In this document: one piece after another, positions 1 to 4,986 of the stretch
Numbering within the stretch: the first letter of the stretch is position 1
Layout of the letters: each line of letters starts with the position of its first letter
NCBI RefSeq assembly: GCF_035975855.1
Contig: NZ_CP109055.1
Span: 2,108,001 to 2,172,000, forward strand
Source of the DNA: Streptomyces sp. NBC_01304
GTDB taxonomy: Bacteria > Actinomycetota > Actinomycetes > Streptomycetales > Streptomycetaceae
Length of the DNA stretch: 64,000 bases
Direction of reading: 5' to 3'
The notes under the pieces: generated by a model
What the model saw: the letters and a program-made list of their open reading frames with translations, nothing else
Told to the model about the DNA's origin: nothing
Database searches by the model: none
Program-made: the position numbers and the translations under genes

Positions 1-590
1 GACCGGTAGTCGATCATCCAGCCGGCGTCGAGGGCCCGCCAGGCCAGATCGGTCTCCTCATGGGCGTAGAAGAAGTCGTCGGGCAGCCCGCCGACCTCTT
101 GGAACACCTTGGTGCGGACGGCGTTGGCGCCGCCCAGGAAGGTGGTGACGCGGGAGTTGCGCATCGGGTCGGAGGCCCGCAGCCGCGGCACGTGCCGGCG
201 CTGGGTCTCGCCGGTGTCCGGGTCGGCGATGCGGAAGCTGATGATGCCCAGCTTCGGGTCCGCCGTGAAGGCCTTGCGGCACAGCTCGGCGGTGTCGGTG
301 TTCGGGAGCAGGCCGTCGTCGTCCAGGAAGAGCAGGACGTCGACGTCCCGGCCCCTCTCGCCGAAGGCCTCGATGCCTATGTTGCGGCCGCCGGGGATGC
401 CCAGGTTCTCGGGCAGCTCGACGGTGCGTACGCCCGCGGGGACGTCCGGCACCGGGGAGCCGTTGCCGACCACGACCACCTCGACGCGGTCGCCGTCCTG
501 CTTGGCGACCGAGTCGAGGAGGGCGCGGAGCTCGTCGGGGCGGTTACCCATGGTGATGATCACCGCTCCGACCTTCAGCTGGTCGGTCAC
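1..590 (-). CDS. Family 2 glycosyltransferase (3' end outside window)
   Basis: About 196 N-terminal residues are visible. They show a GT-A fold start (VGAVIITMGNRPDELRALL), a conserved N-G-S/P turn, the nucleotide-sugar metal-binding run LLFLDDDGLLP and the downstream EETDLAWRALDAG region typical of rhamnosyl/galactofuranosyl-type GT2 enzymes. It would act at the inner face of the membrane, adding a sugar to a lipid or polymer acceptor. The GTG start at 588-590 overlaps the TGA of the upstream CDP-alcohol transferase (GTGA), so the two are translationally coupled and form the last visible step of a five-gene operon. The acceptor cannot be read from the sequence. An in-frame ATG some 16 codons later is a less likely start. 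Confidence 0.88.
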   Translation of the reverse strand, partial: MTDQLKVGAVIITMGNRPDELRALLDSVAKQDGDRVEVVVVGNGSPVPDVPAGVRTVELPENLGIPGGRNIGIEAFGERGRDVDVLLFLDDDGLLPNTDTAELCRKAFTADPKLGIISFRIADPDTGETQRRHVPRLRASDPMRNSRVTTFLGGANAVRTKVFQEVGGLPDDFFYAHEETDLAWRALDAGWMIDYR

Positions 591-1366
591 TTGAGCCTGC
601 TCGAGGCCAGGATGGACACGAGGTGCAGCAGGGTCTGCAGCAGGGCGATGCCGGCCAGTACGGCCACGCCGAGGCGCGAGAAGTACAGGTCTCCGCGGGC
701 CTGGTCCACGATCGCGAGGACGAGGATCAGCAGGGACGCCTCGATGCCGAGGATGAGCCGGTGGAACTTCAGGGCCGATGCGGCCCTGCGGGCCAGGGCC
801 ATGCCGGACGAGCTGATCTCGGCGGCGGACTCCTGGACCACGGGCTTGTTCGCCTGGTGCCGGGCCACTCCGACCAGGTCCGTCTCGGACTTGATCAGAA
901 TGGCGCCGAGCGCGGCGAGCGTCCCGAGGAACGCCCACAGCCAGTCGATGCGCCCCTCGCCCCAGATGTCGGCGGCGCGCAGGCCGAAGCCGACCAGGAC
1001 AGCGGCGTCGCAGATGTAGGCGGCGACGCGGTCCAGGTAGACACCGGCGAGCGAGTACTGCTTCTTGTAGCGGGCCAGCTCACCGTCGACGCAGTCGAAC
1101 AGCAGGTAGAGCTGGACCATCAGCACGCCGAGCACGGCGCCCCAGATGCCAGGCACGAGCAGGACCGGAGCGGCCAGGGCGGCCGCGACGGTCATCACGT
1201 AGGTCACCTGGTTCGGCGTGACCTTCGTGTTCACCAGGTGCCGGTCGATGCGCAGGGAGATCTCGCGCATGTAGAGCCGGCCGGCCCAGTGCTCACCACT
1301 GCGCCGGTCCTTCACACCCGGGGGGTGAACGACCGGGCGGAGCTCAGCTACCGATGGTTTTTGCAT
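587..1366 (-). CDS. CDP-alcohol phosphatidyltransferase family membrane protein, degenerate active site
   Basis: A 259-residue integral membrane protein starting at ATG 1364-1366. Residues 91-112 carry the CDP-alcohol phosphotransferase signature in order (D91, D94-G95, A98-R99, G108, D112). The eighth signature residue, the aspartate expected at 116 and regarded as the catalytic base in this family, is alanine (codon GCC at 1019-1021). Hydrophobic segments flank the motif, as usual for the six-helix fold. The start lies 23 bp inside the upstream dehydrogenase gene and the stop overlaps the glycosyltransferase start. The family moves a phospho-alcohol from a CDP-alcohol onto an acceptor alcohol. 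The missing aspartate suggests altered chemistry, or a subunit role beside the complete paralogue at 3133-4986. Confidence 0.9.
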   Translation of the reverse strand: MQKPSVAELRPVVHPPGVKDRRSGEHWAGRLYMREISLRIDRHLVNTKVTPNQVTYVMTVAAALAAPVLLVPGIWGAVLGVLMVQLYLLFDCVDGELARYKKQYSLAGVYLDRVAAYICDAAVLVGFGLRAADIWGEGRIDWLWAFLGTLAALGAILIKSETDLVGVARHQANKPVVQESAAEISSSGMALARRAASALKFHRLILGIEASLLILVLAIVDQARGDLYFSRLGVAVLAGIALLQTLLHLVSILASSRLK

Positions 1367-2411
1367 AGTCGGCGTATGCGTCCCTGATCTGATCGGCGTT
1401 GAGGTTGAGGTGCTCGAGGATCGTGTAGCGGCCGGGACGCGTCTGCGGGGCGAAGAGCACCGCGTCCACGAGGTCCTGGTCGCTGTAGCCCATCTCCTCC
1501 GCGAGGACCGGCAGCCCGTGCCGGCGCAGCGTCGCGACCATTTCCTTCGCGACGTCGTGGTCACCGCGCAGGAACGTGGCGAACGCTCCGCCGAACCCGC
1601 ACTGCTCTCCGTGCTGCGCGTTGCGCTTGGGGAAGAGCAGGTCGAAGGCGTGGCAGATCTCGTGGCAGGCGCCGGAGGCGGGCCTCGAGTCGCCGGCCAC
1701 GGACATCGCGAGACCGCACATCACCAGGGACTCGGCGAGCACGCTGAGGAATTCGTCGTCGCCGATGCCGCCCGGGTGCCGCAGCACCGCGTGCGCGGCC
1801 TGGCGGGCCATGGCGGCGGCCAGGCCGTCGACCTGCTCGCCGTTTACCTCGTGGGAAAGCTCCCAGTCGGCGACGGCGGAGATCTTGCAGATGACGTCGC
1901 CGATGCCGGCCCGGACGAACCGTGCCGGGGCGTCCCGGATGACGTCCAGGTCGATGACCACGCCGATCGGGTTCGGCACACCGTACGAACCACGGCCGGC
2001 GTCGTTGTCCAGCGTGGCCACCGGCGAGCACAGACCGTCGTGGGCGAGGTTCGTCGCCACGGCGACCAGCGGCAGACCGACCCGGGCCGCCGCGTACTTC
2101 GCACAGTCGACGACCTTGCCGCCGCCGAGCGAGACGACCGCGTCGTACCGGCCGGCCTTCTTTATCGAGTCGGCCAGCTTGACGGCGCCGTCGATGGTGC
2201 CGTCGGCGTCATCGAACCAGTCCGCGCCGGGGAAGGCAGGGGCGAAGCGCTCCTGCAGCATCTTGCCGGAACCACCGCTGCTGATCGCGAAGGCGAGCTT
2301 GCCGGTGGGGGCGATGCGCTGGTCGGTCAGGATCGTGGCCAGATCGTCCAGCGCGCCGGCCCGGATGTCGACGACAACCGGGGCCGGCATCAGCCGGGTC
2401 AGTACAGGCAC
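1344..2411 (-). CDS. Glycerol-1-phosphate dehydrogenase-like iron/zinc alcohol dehydrogenase (AraM/EgsA type)
   Basis: A 355-residue soluble enzyme. It has the hallmarks of the sn-glycerol-1-phosphate/2-deoxy-scyllo-inosose-like dehydrogenase fold: a Rossmann loop (VSLGGGKVVDCAKYAA), the TNLAHDGLCSPVA segment, a metal ligand in GIGDVICKISAVADWEL, and histidine ligands in SGACHEICHAFD and AQHGEQCG. These segments match the G1P dehydrogenase subgroup better than ordinary iron alcohol dehydrogenases. The expected reaction is NAD(P)H-dependent reduction of dihydroxyacetone phosphate, or a similar ketose phosphate, to a polyol phosphate. I chose GTG 2409-2411 (VPVLTRLMPAP), which overlaps the cytidylyltransferase gene by 13 bp; an ATG eight codons on is possible. 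Its place between a nucleotidyltransferase and CDP-alcohol transferases suggests it makes the polyol phosphate that is then activated. Confidence 0.85.
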   Translation of the reverse strand: MPVLTRLMPAPVVVDIRAGALDDLATILTDQRIAPTGKLAFAISSGGSGKMLQERFAPAFPGADWFDDADGTIDGAVKLADSIKKAGRYDAVVSLGGGKVVDCAKYAAARVGLPLVAVATNLAHDGLCSPVATLDNDAGRGSYGVPNPIGVVIDLDVIRDAPARFVRAGIGDVICKISAVADWELSHEVNGEQVDGLAAAMARQAAHAVLRHPGGIGDDEFLSVLAESLVMCGLAMSVAGDSRPASGACHEICHAFDLLFPKRNAQHGEQCGFGGAFATFLRGDHDVAKEMVATLRRHGLPVLAEEMGYSDQDLVDAVLFAPQTRPGRYTILEHLNLNADQIRDAYADYAKTIGS

Positions 2412-3136
2412 GCGATCTCCCGCCCCTTGGCGAGGTCGTCGTGGTTGTCGATCTCGACCCACTTGAGGTCGCCGATCGGCGCCACGTCGATCTTGAAGCC
2501 GCGGTTGACGAGCTCCTGGTAGCCGTCCTCGTAGTAGAGGTCGGGGTCGCGCTCGAAGGTGACCTTGAGGGCGTCGGCGAGCTCTTCGGCGGCGGAGCCC
2601 TCGATGAGGGTGACGCCGATGTACTCACCGGTGGCCTCGGACGGGTCCATCAGCTTGGTGATGCGCTGGACACCCTTCTCGGGGTCCACGACGACCTTCA
2701 TCTCCTCGTCGGCGAGCTGCTTCACCGTGTCGAGGGCGAGGATGATCTTCTTGCCGTCGCCGCGGGCGGCAAGGAGGGTCTTCTCGACGGAGACCGGGTG
2801 CACGGTGTCGCCGTTGGCGAGGATCACGTCGTGCTTGATCGCGTCACGGCCGCACCACAGGGAGTAGGCGTTGTTCCACTCCTCGGCCTTGTCGTTGTCG
2901 ATCAGGGTGATCTTGAGGCCGTACTTCGCCTCAAGAGCCTCCTTGCGCGCGTAGACGGCTTCCTTGCGGTAGCCGACGATGATCGCGACCTCGGAAAGAC
3001 CGATCTCGGCGAAGTTGCCGAGCGTCAGGTCGAGGATGGTGGTCTCACCATCGACGGGCACCAGGGCCTTGGGCAGGGTGTCCGTGTAGGGGCGAAGACG
3101 CCGTCCGGCGCCGGCCGCCAGCACGAGGCCGATCAT
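2399..3136 (-). CDS. Sugar/polyol-phosphate nucleotidyltransferase (LicC/IPCT-like)
   Basis: A 245-residue NTP-transferase-fold protein. The N-terminal LVLAAGAGRRLRPYT loop with TLPKALVPV is the nucleotide-binding signature. EEWNNAYSLWCGRD resembles the NN-x-YSL element of phosphocholine and inositol-1-phosphate cytidylyltransferases, and ILANGDTVHP supplies the metal-binding aspartate. It probably forms a CDP-polyol from CTP and a polyol phosphate; substrate and base are inferred from its neighbours. ATG 3134-3136 overlaps the upstream stop as ATGA, and the 3' end overlaps the dehydrogenase start, so expression is coupled. No membrane segment is visible. Confidence 0.88.
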   Translation of the reverse strand: MIGLVLAAGAGRRLRPYTDTLPKALVPVDGETTILDLTLGNFAEIGLSEVAIIVGYRKEAVYARKEALEAKYGLKITLIDNDKAEEWNNAYSLWCGRDAIKHDVILANGDTVHPVSVEKTLLAARGDGKKIILALDTVKQLADEEMKVVVDPEKGVQRITKLMDPSEATGEYIGVTLIEGSAAEELADALKVTFERDPDLYYEDGYQELVNRGFKIDVAPIGDLKWVEIDNHDDLAKGREIACLY

Positions 3137-4986
3137 GCGGGTTCTCCTTCATCGTGTACGGCGGGTGCTCCGGAGGACACCCAGAAGCGGATGCTCTCGC
3201 TGAGCACCACTAGTGCCACGAGCACGGCCAGGGCCGTGAGCGCGACGGTGAAATCTTGCGCGGACAGCAGGGCGGCAGCGACTGCGACAGCCAGCGTCCT
3301 GCCTTCTTGTCCGCCGATGGCCCGCACCAGCCAGTGCGGGGGCGCGCCGGTGCCACCGCGAATGCGGTACACCGTGTCGTAGTGATGGTAGGCGACGGCG
3401 GCCACCAGGCCGAAAGCCGCCGGCAAGGCCCCGTTCACATCCGCCTTGGCGGCGAGGATCAGGACCGTGCCGTACTCGGCGGCGCGGAAGATCGGCGGGA
3501 CCAGCCAGTCGAGGGGGCCCTTGAGGGGCGCGCAGACGGCGGTCGCCGAGAGGACGGCGTACATCGCGGCGGCGGCCACGAGGCCCCAGCCTGCGGGGTT
3601 CTCAAGGGCTGCCGTGATCAGCAGCGCCGTGCCGAGCAACGCCACGATGGGCGCCTCGAAGCCGCCGGTACGGCGCTTGCGGCGCGGGGAGCCCGCCGCG
3701 AACCACTCGCCCAGCGGCCCCGTGTCCGCGAGCTCCGACAGCGCCTGCGCCGCCCGGTCCGTCCGGGTCGCCTTGCGGGTCAGCGAGCGCAGCACCCGGC
3801 CCGAGGTGGTGTAGAGCGCCGCGAAGGCACAGCCGATCAGGAGTGCGTACAGCGTGATCCGGGGCGTGGTCAACGCGGTCAGTACGGCGATCATGGCCCA
3901 GCGTTCGCCGATCGGCAGAACTATCATCCGGCGCAGCCAGACCGTCCAGCCGATGCTGTCGAGCTTGTCCGAAAGGGCGGCGGTGGGGCTGCCAACTACA
4001 GATTTACCAGCGGCGGTCGCGTCGTGGTTCGCCTCGTTGAAGGAGAAGTCCACGACGTGCCGGCAGGTCTGCAGCACCATCGCGCCCAGGGCGAGCGCCC
4101 ACACGTCGTCGCCACTCGCGTTGGCCGCGCCGAGGGCGAGGCCCGCGTAGTAGGCGTACTCCTTGGCGCGGTCGAAGGTGGCGTCGAGCCAGGCGCCCAT
4201 CGTCGAGTACTGCAGCGAGTAGCGGGCGAGCTGCCCGTCGGTGCAGTCCAGGACGAAGGAGAAGAGGAGCAGCGCGCCGGCCGCGACGAAGCCCCAGCGC
4301 TCACCGGTCGCGGCGCAGCCGGCCGCGATCAGGGCGGTGATCAGCGAGGCCGTGGTGACCTGGTTCGGGGTCAGGCCCCGGCGGGCGCACCAGCGCGCGA
4401 GGTAGCGGGAGTACGGGCTGATGCAGTACGTGGTGAAGAAGCCGTCGCGGGACTTGACCGCGGTGCGCAGCCGCACGGCCTCCTCGTCGACCGCGGCGAC
4501 CGCCTGCCGGGCCTCGTTGCGGGCCTGCGGGCCGGCCGGCACCTGCGCGACGAGCGTGCCGAGCTCGGGCCGGTGCAGCTCGACGTCGTCGGCGTCGAGG
4601 GCCGTGGCGATGCGCTGCGTCAGGGGTACGTCCAGGACGTCGCCGGAGTTGCCGGGCACGGACCCCGCCGCGGCGGGCGCCCCGGAGGTGACCGCCTGGC
4701 GCACGGCCCGGGTCAGCTCGGCCCGGGCGCTCGGCAGTGCGGAGACGGCGCCGGGGATCGCGCTGGCGTGGAAGCGGGGGTCGGTCAGGCCGAGGCGCAG
4801 CGCGTGGACGTGGCCGACGAATGCGGCGTCGACGACGGCGACGCGCTCATCCGCGGGGACCGCGGCGAGCAGGGTCGCGATGTCCGCGGCACCCGAGGAG
4901 ACCTGCACCTCGAACCCCAGCTCCCGCAGGTCGCCCTCGAGCGACGATCCGGGGACCGGCGAACCGGTGAGGATGGCGGTCGACAG
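3133..4986 (-). CDS. CDP-alcohol phosphatidyltransferase with DUF5941 region, probable CTG start
   Basis: First gene of the operon, 617 residues. The N-terminal 170 residues are soluble. The complete CDP-alcohol phosphotransferase signature D-x2-D-G-x2-A-R-x8-G-x3-D-x3-D lies near residues 247-272 (LDCTDGQLARY through WLDATFD). A second membrane region (last 180 residues) corresponds to DUF5941. The frame stays open above GTG 4908 to a CTG at 4984-4986, with AAGGAG nine bases upstream and an in-frame TGA just beyond. The extra residues (STAILTGSPVPGSSLEG) look coding. No ATG or GTG gives this N terminus, so CTG is the likely start; GTG 4908 is the fallback. The stop overlaps the next ATG. It should join an activated alcohol to a lipid or polyol at the membrane. 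Confidence 0.88.
   Translation of the reverse strand: MSTAILTGSPVPGSSLEGDLRELGFEVQVSSGAADIATLLAAVPADERVAVVDAAFVGHVHALRLGLTDPRFHASAIPGAVSALPSARAELTRAVRQAVTSGAPAAAGSVPGNSGDVLDVPLTQRIATALDADDVELHRPELGTLVAQVPAGPQARNEARQAVAAVDEEAVRLRTAVKSRDGFFTTYCISPYSRYLARWCARRGLTPNQVTTASLITALIAAGCAATGERWGFVAAGALLLFSFVLDCTDGQLARYSLQYSTMGAWLDATFDRAKEYAYYAGLALGAANASGDDVWALALGAMVLQTCRHVVDFSFNEANHDATAAGKSVVGSPTAALSDKLDSIGWTVWLRRMIVLPIGERWAMIAVLTALTTPRITLYALLIGCAFAALYTTSGRVLRSLTRKATRTDRAAQALSELADTGPLGEWFAAGSPRRKRRTGGFEAPIVALLGTALLITAALENPAGWGLVAAAAMYAVLSATAVCAPLKGPLDWLVPPIFRAAEYGTVLILAAKADVNGALPAAFGLVAAVAYHHYDTVYRIRGGTGAPPHWLVRAIGGQEGRTLAVAVAAALLSAQDFTVALTALAVLVALVVLSESIRFWVSSGAPAVHDEGEPA

Follow-up and report, generated by a model that had tools for sequence, protein, structure and literature searches.

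Gene content of the cluster

The window analysed here is a 64,000-nucleotide stretch of Streptomyces sp. NBC_01304 DNA (G000:C1:2108001-2172000, genome 11 Mb). Its first 4,986 positions hold five overlapping minus-strand genes, among them those for an sn-glycerol-1-phosphate dehydrogenase (G1PDH)-type enzyme and a cytidylyltransferase, and the unit continues past the window edge into genes of the TagG/TagH exporter type. This gene set is conserved in Streptomyces and suggests a route to a teichoic-acid-like polymer. The five genes of the window are:

3133..4986, minus strand: CDP-alcohol phosphotransferase with a C-terminal DUF5941 and an N-terminal domain of uncertain kinship (PF01066 and PF19365; proposed CTG start)
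2399..3136, minus strand: LicC/IPCT-like cytidylyltransferase, 245 amino acids (aa) (PF00483, NTP_transferase; top PDB match LicC, 1jyk)
1344..2411, minus strand: G1PDH-type enzyme (proposed GTG start; PF13685, Fe-ADH_2; match to the G1PDHs 4rgq/4rfl, motifs and tree)
587..1366, minus strand: second CDP-alcohol phosphotransferase, 259 aa (PF01066, CDP-OH_P_transf; closest solved structure AF2299)
1..590, minus strand: C-terminal part of a GT2 glycosyltransferase cut by the window edge (PF00535, E = 2e-13); the whole gene is G000:C1:2107706-2108590 (L005:17706-18590), 294 aa

An earlier note on this DNA had described these five genes, and all are present as open frames of the families it named; its start coordinates give junction overlaps of 4, 4, 23, and 4 bp, within the 4-23 bp that it reported. 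For the dehydrogenase, GTG 2411 is a likelier start than CTG 2402, because of the reading frame and the annotated start in S. fungicidicus, and the overlap with the cytidylyltransferase gene would then be 13 bp. The start of the DUF5941 gene at 4986 is an unusual CTG where S. fungicidicus has TTG, and the first common start is GTG 4908. The five-gene extent given in the note did not hold, as the unit crosses the window edge. Beyond position 1 lies the rest of the GT2 gene, after which come an ABC-2 permease (PF01061, TagG-type) and then an ATPase (PF00005, TagH-type).

Conservation of the gene set and of the dehydrogenase-nucleotidyltransferase pair

The genes for the DUF5941 protein, cytidylyltransferase, dehydrogenase, second CDP-alcohol transferase, GT2, TagG, and TagH lie on one strand and in this order in 41 of the 44 Streptomyces loci examined (L020-L027 and L033-L068; two strains give two loci each). 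Two of the remaining three loci stop at a contig edge, and TagH was undetected in L063. This arrangement, which recurs in part in other Actinomycetota, is beyond chance. Across a same-genus sample of 101 genomes, the window's own included, both DUF5941 and the dehydrogenase are present in every genome, and their starts are at most 2.5 kb apart in 100; in G314 they are on separate contigs. The earlier note had held that a lack of joint conservation would count against a system, and the genes proved to be conserved together. DUF5941 is rare outside the genus: a sample of 296 genomes from across the phylum has it in 13, of which nine are Streptomyces, and all 13 genomes match G1PDH strongly. Of the 37 named contigs that carry a dehydrogenase relative, 36 are from Streptomyces (best identity 96%), and the remaining one is a Hamadaea metagenome-assembled genome at 49%.

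Beyond the genus, the first five genes recur in Nonomuraea and in G183. All seven occur in genome G086, where TagG/TagH follow after about 5 kb and the space between GT2 and TagG is taken up by sulfotransferase genes and a GT4 gene. DUF5941 is missing from the set in G045, which otherwise carries the genes for GT2, second transferase, dehydrogenase, cytidylyltransferase, and TagH/TagG. At L029 (G183) and L030 (G108), the CDP-alcohol transferase and DUF5941 parts match in different reading frames, so that these may be separate genes.

The pairing of dehydrogenase and nucleotidyltransferase reaches further than the full set. Strong G1PDH matches (E below 1e-55) occur at 24 loci outside Streptomyces. 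Of these, 23 were testable (G058 starts at a contig edge), and a nucleotidyltransferase gene adjoins the G1PDH gene in 20 (17 of 20 fetched together, plus G086, G183, and G242). The three exceptions are G003, where the nucleotidyltransferase is about 3 kb off; G108, where about 15 kb of one contig separate the two; and G114, in which a second copy has none and stands beside a CDP-alcohol transferase. This deep linkage supports the order of steps proposed in the earlier note, in which a ketose phosphate is reduced and a CDP-polyol is formed, transferred, and glycosylated. In the distant Actinomycetota family f9 (L164-L173), the nucleotidyltransferase was in part detected only with the family's own queries; neighbours of the pair there are a DUF4012 protein, a phosphodiesterase (PF01663), and a sugar transferase (PF02397) (one representative scanned, the neighbours being common to several loci). 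Four plasmid records with G1PDH-like genes had no nucleotidyltransferase neighbour in the stretch covered.

The genes that follow TagG/TagH are read as hopanoid and isoprenoid genes (hpnC, hpnD, hpnE, a polyprenyl synthase, shc, an hpnG-like gene, hpnH, ispG, and dxs), in an order identical to that of the S. fungicidicus annotation. hpnC is present in 38 of the 44 Streptomyces loci, the remaining six being short loci. At the other end, a galE-like gene is present in 30 of the 44 loci; in 29 cases it diverges from the DUF5941 gene, with its start at most 600 bp away, an arrangement also annotated in S. fungicidicus. The window has no galE-like gene at that position; by sequence, a similar gene adjoins the TagG/TagH pair of this genome's TagF locus, described below.

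Properties of the enzymes

The dehydrogenase matches PF13685 (E = 3.5e-25), and its closest solved relatives by sequence are the G1PDHs 4rgq and 4rfl (148 bits). Chain 3ce9, deposited as a glycerol dehydrogenase, reaches 144 bits and is placed by the tree on the side of the G1PDHs; 1kq3, the next best of that name, reaches 61 bits. In a 42-row tree that included two GldA rows and left out cyclitol synthases, the window enzyme belongs to its own 14-row clade (support 100/100), apart from EgsA (4rgq, 5fb3) and AraM-type rows, and the two GldA rows are separated from the other 40 by a branch of 4.38 (support 100/100). The stretches [HN]DG..SP and RPxRYTIL are common to the window enzyme and the solved G1PDHs and are altered in GldA. 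Asp169, His247, and His264, which we take to be metal ligands, align with 4rgq and 5fb3 and are non-discriminating, since GldA has them too; the G045 relative has Glu at the position of the Asp ligand. The three motifs quoted in the earlier note (TNLAHDGLCSPVA, GIGDVICKISAVADWEL, and AQHGEQCG) are all found in the protein. Its description as G1PDH-like is thus borne out by family, motifs, and a clade beside EgsA and AraM and far from GldA. A grouping with cyclitol synthases or ordinary alcohol dehydrogenases, named there as a possible refutation, did not appear: the enzyme stands apart from the two glycerol dehydrogenases in the tree and scores 27 bits with the aroB model, against 231 bits with the G1PDH model. 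Identity with glycerol dehydrogenase itself was rejected, as this genome's GldA is a different gene (L032) on a far-off branch. On a Rubrobacter indicoceani plasmid (L152), two genes annotated as sn-glycerol-1-phosphate dehydrogenases lie amid those for sugar kinases and glycerol-3-phosphate dehydrogenases. Bacterial EgsA/AraM proteins are treated as G1PDHs in passages of Yokobori et al. 2016 (PMC5059525), where a Streptomyces sequence is named in the legend of a supplementary alignment.

The LAAGxGxRLRP stretch of the cytidylyltransferase aligns with LicC (1jyk), and its NNAYSL aligns with NNFYSL of that protein, both stretches presumably having a role in CTP binding. Both this enzyme and the dehydrogenase come from families whose members are soluble, and both steps should therefore be directly assayable.

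Two CDP-alcohol transferases are encoded, and they differ in their catalytic motif. The DUF5941 protein has the complete four-Asp motif in all rows compared (62 by tally, some loci twice). The last Asp of D-x2-D-G-x2-A-R-x8-G-x3-D-x3-D is Ala in the window copy of the second transferase, and the 49 readable copies, the window's included, have 43 Ala, 6 His, and no Asp at this position. This count combines 46 readable rows of 50 (42 Ala, 4 His) with L160 (His), L159 (His), and Nonomuraea (Ala); the four rows dropped were two partial copies and two matches to the DUF5941 protein of G108. The transferase that adjoins the pair in Hamadaea and in G204 retains the last Asp. This residue is presumably the base in the CDP-alcohol transferase family, and a phosphate acceptor would not require it.

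By sequence, the closest solved relatives of both transferases are AF2299 and AfDIPPS. AlphaFold models of the two proteins were of low confidence and were used for fold matches only; AF2299 came first for the second transferase (E = 1e-4), and AF2299 and IPCT-DIPPS came first for the DUF5941 protein, none of its matches reaching E <= 0.001. The N-terminal domain of non-Streptomyces DUF5941 proteins matched cytidylyltransferases in hhalign (E = 1.9e-4, probability 48%), a faint hint that this domain might be a degenerate cytidylyltransferase. The Streptomyces domain gave no match to cytidylyltransferases (E = 0.11) and does match the non-Streptomyces domains.

A proposed route to a teichoic-acid-like polymer

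We put the probability at roughly 55% that the five genes and tagG/tagH are a core locus of Streptomyces for making a surface polymer that resembles teichoic acid and contains glycerol phosphate, or the lipid-linked precursor of such a polymer. It is the TagG/TagH exporter past the window edge that points to a surface polymer of this kind; family membership and gene context are the basis on which substrate, stereochemistry, and product are proposed. The dehydrogenase would convert dihydroxyacetone phosphate to sn-glycerol-1-phosphate (G1P), which the LicC-like enzyme would join with CTP to give CDP-glycerol carrying the G1P enantiomer. The DUF5941 CDP-alcohol transferase would then move glycerol phosphate to a membrane acceptor, and the second CDP-alcohol transferase would perform a second transfer, possibly onto a phosphate-ended acceptor because its last motif Asp is missing. 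The GT2 enzyme may add a sugar, possibly galactose since a galE-like gene is so often divergently adjacent, although a galactose-type donor is a guess, and TagG/TagH would export the product. The earlier note had left the polyol as either G1P or an inositol-like alcohol; glycerol as G1P is now favoured, and the inositol-like alcohol finds no support beyond the closest solved transferases.

CDP-glycerol from the cluster may also feed TagF-like polymerases (PF04464) encoded elsewhere, which are present in 96 of the 101 same-genus genomes. The window's genome has nine PF04464 matches, eight of them at 6.64-6.69 Mb. That TagF-rich locus has a TagG/TagH pair of its own, which shares 69% (TagG) and 76% (TagH) identity with the cluster's pair. 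The eight matches lie within 50 kb (G000:C1:6641735-6691517), and a Pfam scan of one of them showed a fusion to a GT2 domain. In G108 and G204, DUF5941 and TagGH stand beside PF04464 proteins. A second dehydrogenase copy occurs in five of the 101 genomes, with a cytidylyltransferase beside it in four (that of G314 is cut by a contig edge) and the dehydrogenase alone in G382. The second copies of G362, G314, and G382 have GT2-PF04464-type genes within about 10 kb, and two of these three have the cytidylyltransferase adjoining. The second cytidylyltransferase-dehydrogenase copies at L181, L182, L183, and L184 (L180 has the dehydrogenase only) look as if they had moved as a two-gene unit; the neighbours of L180-L184 are presumably rne and obg.

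TagD of the wall teichoic acid pathway was sought with TIGR01518, which gave no match over its cut-off in the 101 genomes, compared with two of 14 controls; by subtraction, 28 genomes have PF04464 without any TIGR01518 match. G161 has neither a TIGR01518 match nor a second full-length PF01128 match, and the cluster enzyme is therefore the sole CDP-glycerol candidate found there.

Several observations weigh against this reading. None of the PF04464 matches of the window's genome lies inside the cluster, and five same-genus genomes and G086 retain the cluster without any PF04464 match; it is therefore not just a supplier for TagF and must also work alone. No TagF-like gene turned up in the sequence retrieved for the second copies of G298 and G372. 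Sub-cut-off TIGR01518 matches occur in 70 of the 101 genomes, the window's own included, where a 215-aa frame with a TagD-like match of this kind makes the CDP-glycerol argument weaker. A second full-length IspD-type gene (PF01128) is present in seven of 13 genomes, and other CDP-glycerol sources may therefore exist. The G204 DUF5941-TagGH locus lies about 0.9 Mb from the cytidylyltransferase-dehydrogenase pair, so the seven genes are not inseparable, and the one f9 partner scanned matches PF12804 rather than PF00483, which makes its use of CTP less sure. The dehydrogenase, at 231 bits, is under the 413-bit cut-off of the NCBIfam G1PDH model (NF002022), which was reached by none of the 296 Actinomycetota genomes and by three control genomes. 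The second CDP-alcohol transferase may be inactive, and the models of the two transferases are poor (mean pLDDT 52 and 55).

The same architecture could serve another polyol if the dehydrogenase reduced a different ketose phosphate and the donor were a CDP-polyol other than CDP-glycerol. We consider this possible though rather unlikely. The separate clade of the dehydrogenase, its score under the curated cut-off, and the inositol-phosphate enzyme among the closest solved relatives of the transferases are in its favour, but the [HN]DG..SP and RPxRYTIL stretches shared with solved G1PDHs speak for G1P, as does the position of three of the five duplicate dehydrogenase copies near TagF-like glycerophosphotransferase genes. 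Another candidate product is a soluble phosphodiester solute, such as those made by bifunctional IPCT-DIPPS enzymes or by diglycerol phosphate producers. A cytidylyltransferase with a CDP-alcohol transferase is indeed the DIPP layout, and AF2299 and AfDIPPS are the closest solved transferases, yet a unit that includes a TagG/TagH-type exporter and a GT2, and is associated with TagF, makes a soluble product very improbable.

The downstream neighbours raise the question of whether the locus modifies or glycosylates hopanoids, since hpnC-E, shc, and other hopanoid genes lie beside it in Streptomyces. In G086 and G183, the sequence retrieved on both sides of the unit gave no match to a hopanoid protein, and hopanoid decoration is disfavoured to the point that we give it hardly any weight. 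The adjoining isoprenoid and hopanoid genes would also suit an archaeal-type isoprenoid ether lipid built on G1P, a use of AraM-type G1P described for Bacillus subtilis in passages of PMC4244643. Here the dehydrogenase is paired with a nucleotidyltransferase instead, and none of 30 G1PDH-bearing genomes has a geranylgeranylglyceryl phosphate (GGGP) synthase (PF01884) over the cut-off (three weak sub-cut-off stretches), while seven of 14 controls were positive, including B. subtilis and four archaea. We therefore rejected the ether lipid, whose probability is close to nil.

Returning to the teichoic-acid-like polymer, a bolder form of the proposal can be stated, tentatively and as one unlikely to hold in full: Streptomyces and other Actinomycetota would make such polymers from G1P, by way of the CDP-glycerol enantiomer that a G1PDH and a cytidylyltransferase would supply as a dedicated pair, and the second transferase would represent a new subclass of CDP-alcohol transferases that lacks the last Asp and passes a phospho-alcohol to a phosphate-ended lipid carrier (for example, undecaprenyl phosphate), a new start for a lipid-linked polymer. 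If so, the G1P unit would be the mirror image of the unit in Bacillus wall teichoic acid. The archaeal stereoisomer would then function in ordinary bacterial walls, and bacterial G1PDHs would serve for more than the ether lipid of B. subtilis.

In S. coelicolor, SCO6754 and six further SCO numbers, SCO6753 among them, presumably correspond to this locus. The open-licence PubMed Central (PMC) literature yielded nothing on DUF5941, on SCO6754, on glycerol-1-phosphate with teichoic acid, CDP-glycerol, and Streptomyces, or on CDP-alcohol phosphotransferases with teichoic acid, and no published pathway of the kind proposed was found in it; of the six further SCO numbers, SCO6753 alone came up, in a network-inference paper. 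Passages of Cot et al. 2011 (PMC3196553) describe Streptomyces lipoteichoic acid (LTA) as a polyglycerolphosphate, that of S. hygroscopicus being nearly identical to its wall teichoic acid, favour a shared route, note that actinobacteria have no clear LtaS orthologues, and leave LTA synthesis open; no word beginning with 'stereo' or 'sn-glycero' occurs in the text of that paper, and no chirality was found there. With its presence in all 101 sampled same-genus genomes, the locus is a candidate for part of such a shared LTA/wall teichoic acid route, and it would help to explain how Streptomyces makes teichoic-acid-like polymers without some of the usual enzymes.

The region has already appeared in print, so the suggestion in the earlier note that the system is undescribed holds only in part. 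By its gene list, it is the crtB-tagH-tagG-araM region that a study of 929 Streptomyces genomes (PMC13118837) counts among conserved orphan clusters, with teichoic acid and secondary metabolism as its category; passages of that study on the region give no enzyme-by-enzyme pathway. The dehydrogenase shares family and motifs with archaeal EgsA and bacterial AraM, but it belongs to a separate clade and is paired with a nucleotidyltransferase, not with a GGGP synthase. LicC, a CTP:phosphocholine cytidylyltransferase, is the top solved match of the cytidylyltransferase and has the same nucleotide-binding stretches, whereas only residues 3-106 of the query align and the substrate here is taken to be glycerol phosphate. 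AF2299 and the bifunctional IPCT-DIPPS enzymes are the closest solved CDP-alcohol transferases by sequence and, with poor models, by fold; in contrast to them, the cluster has a DUF5941 extension, a separate cytidylyltransferase gene, and a second transferase without the last Asp. With the wall teichoic acid pathway (TagD, TagB/TagF, TagGH), the cluster would share a CDP-activated polyol phosphate, and it has a TagG/TagH-type exporter; some relatives and duplicate copies of its genes sit with PF04464 polymerases. It differs in a precursor that would be formed by a G1PDH-type enzyme and a LicC-like transferase rather than by TagD, and in having two membrane CDP-alcohol transferases and no TagF in the unit.

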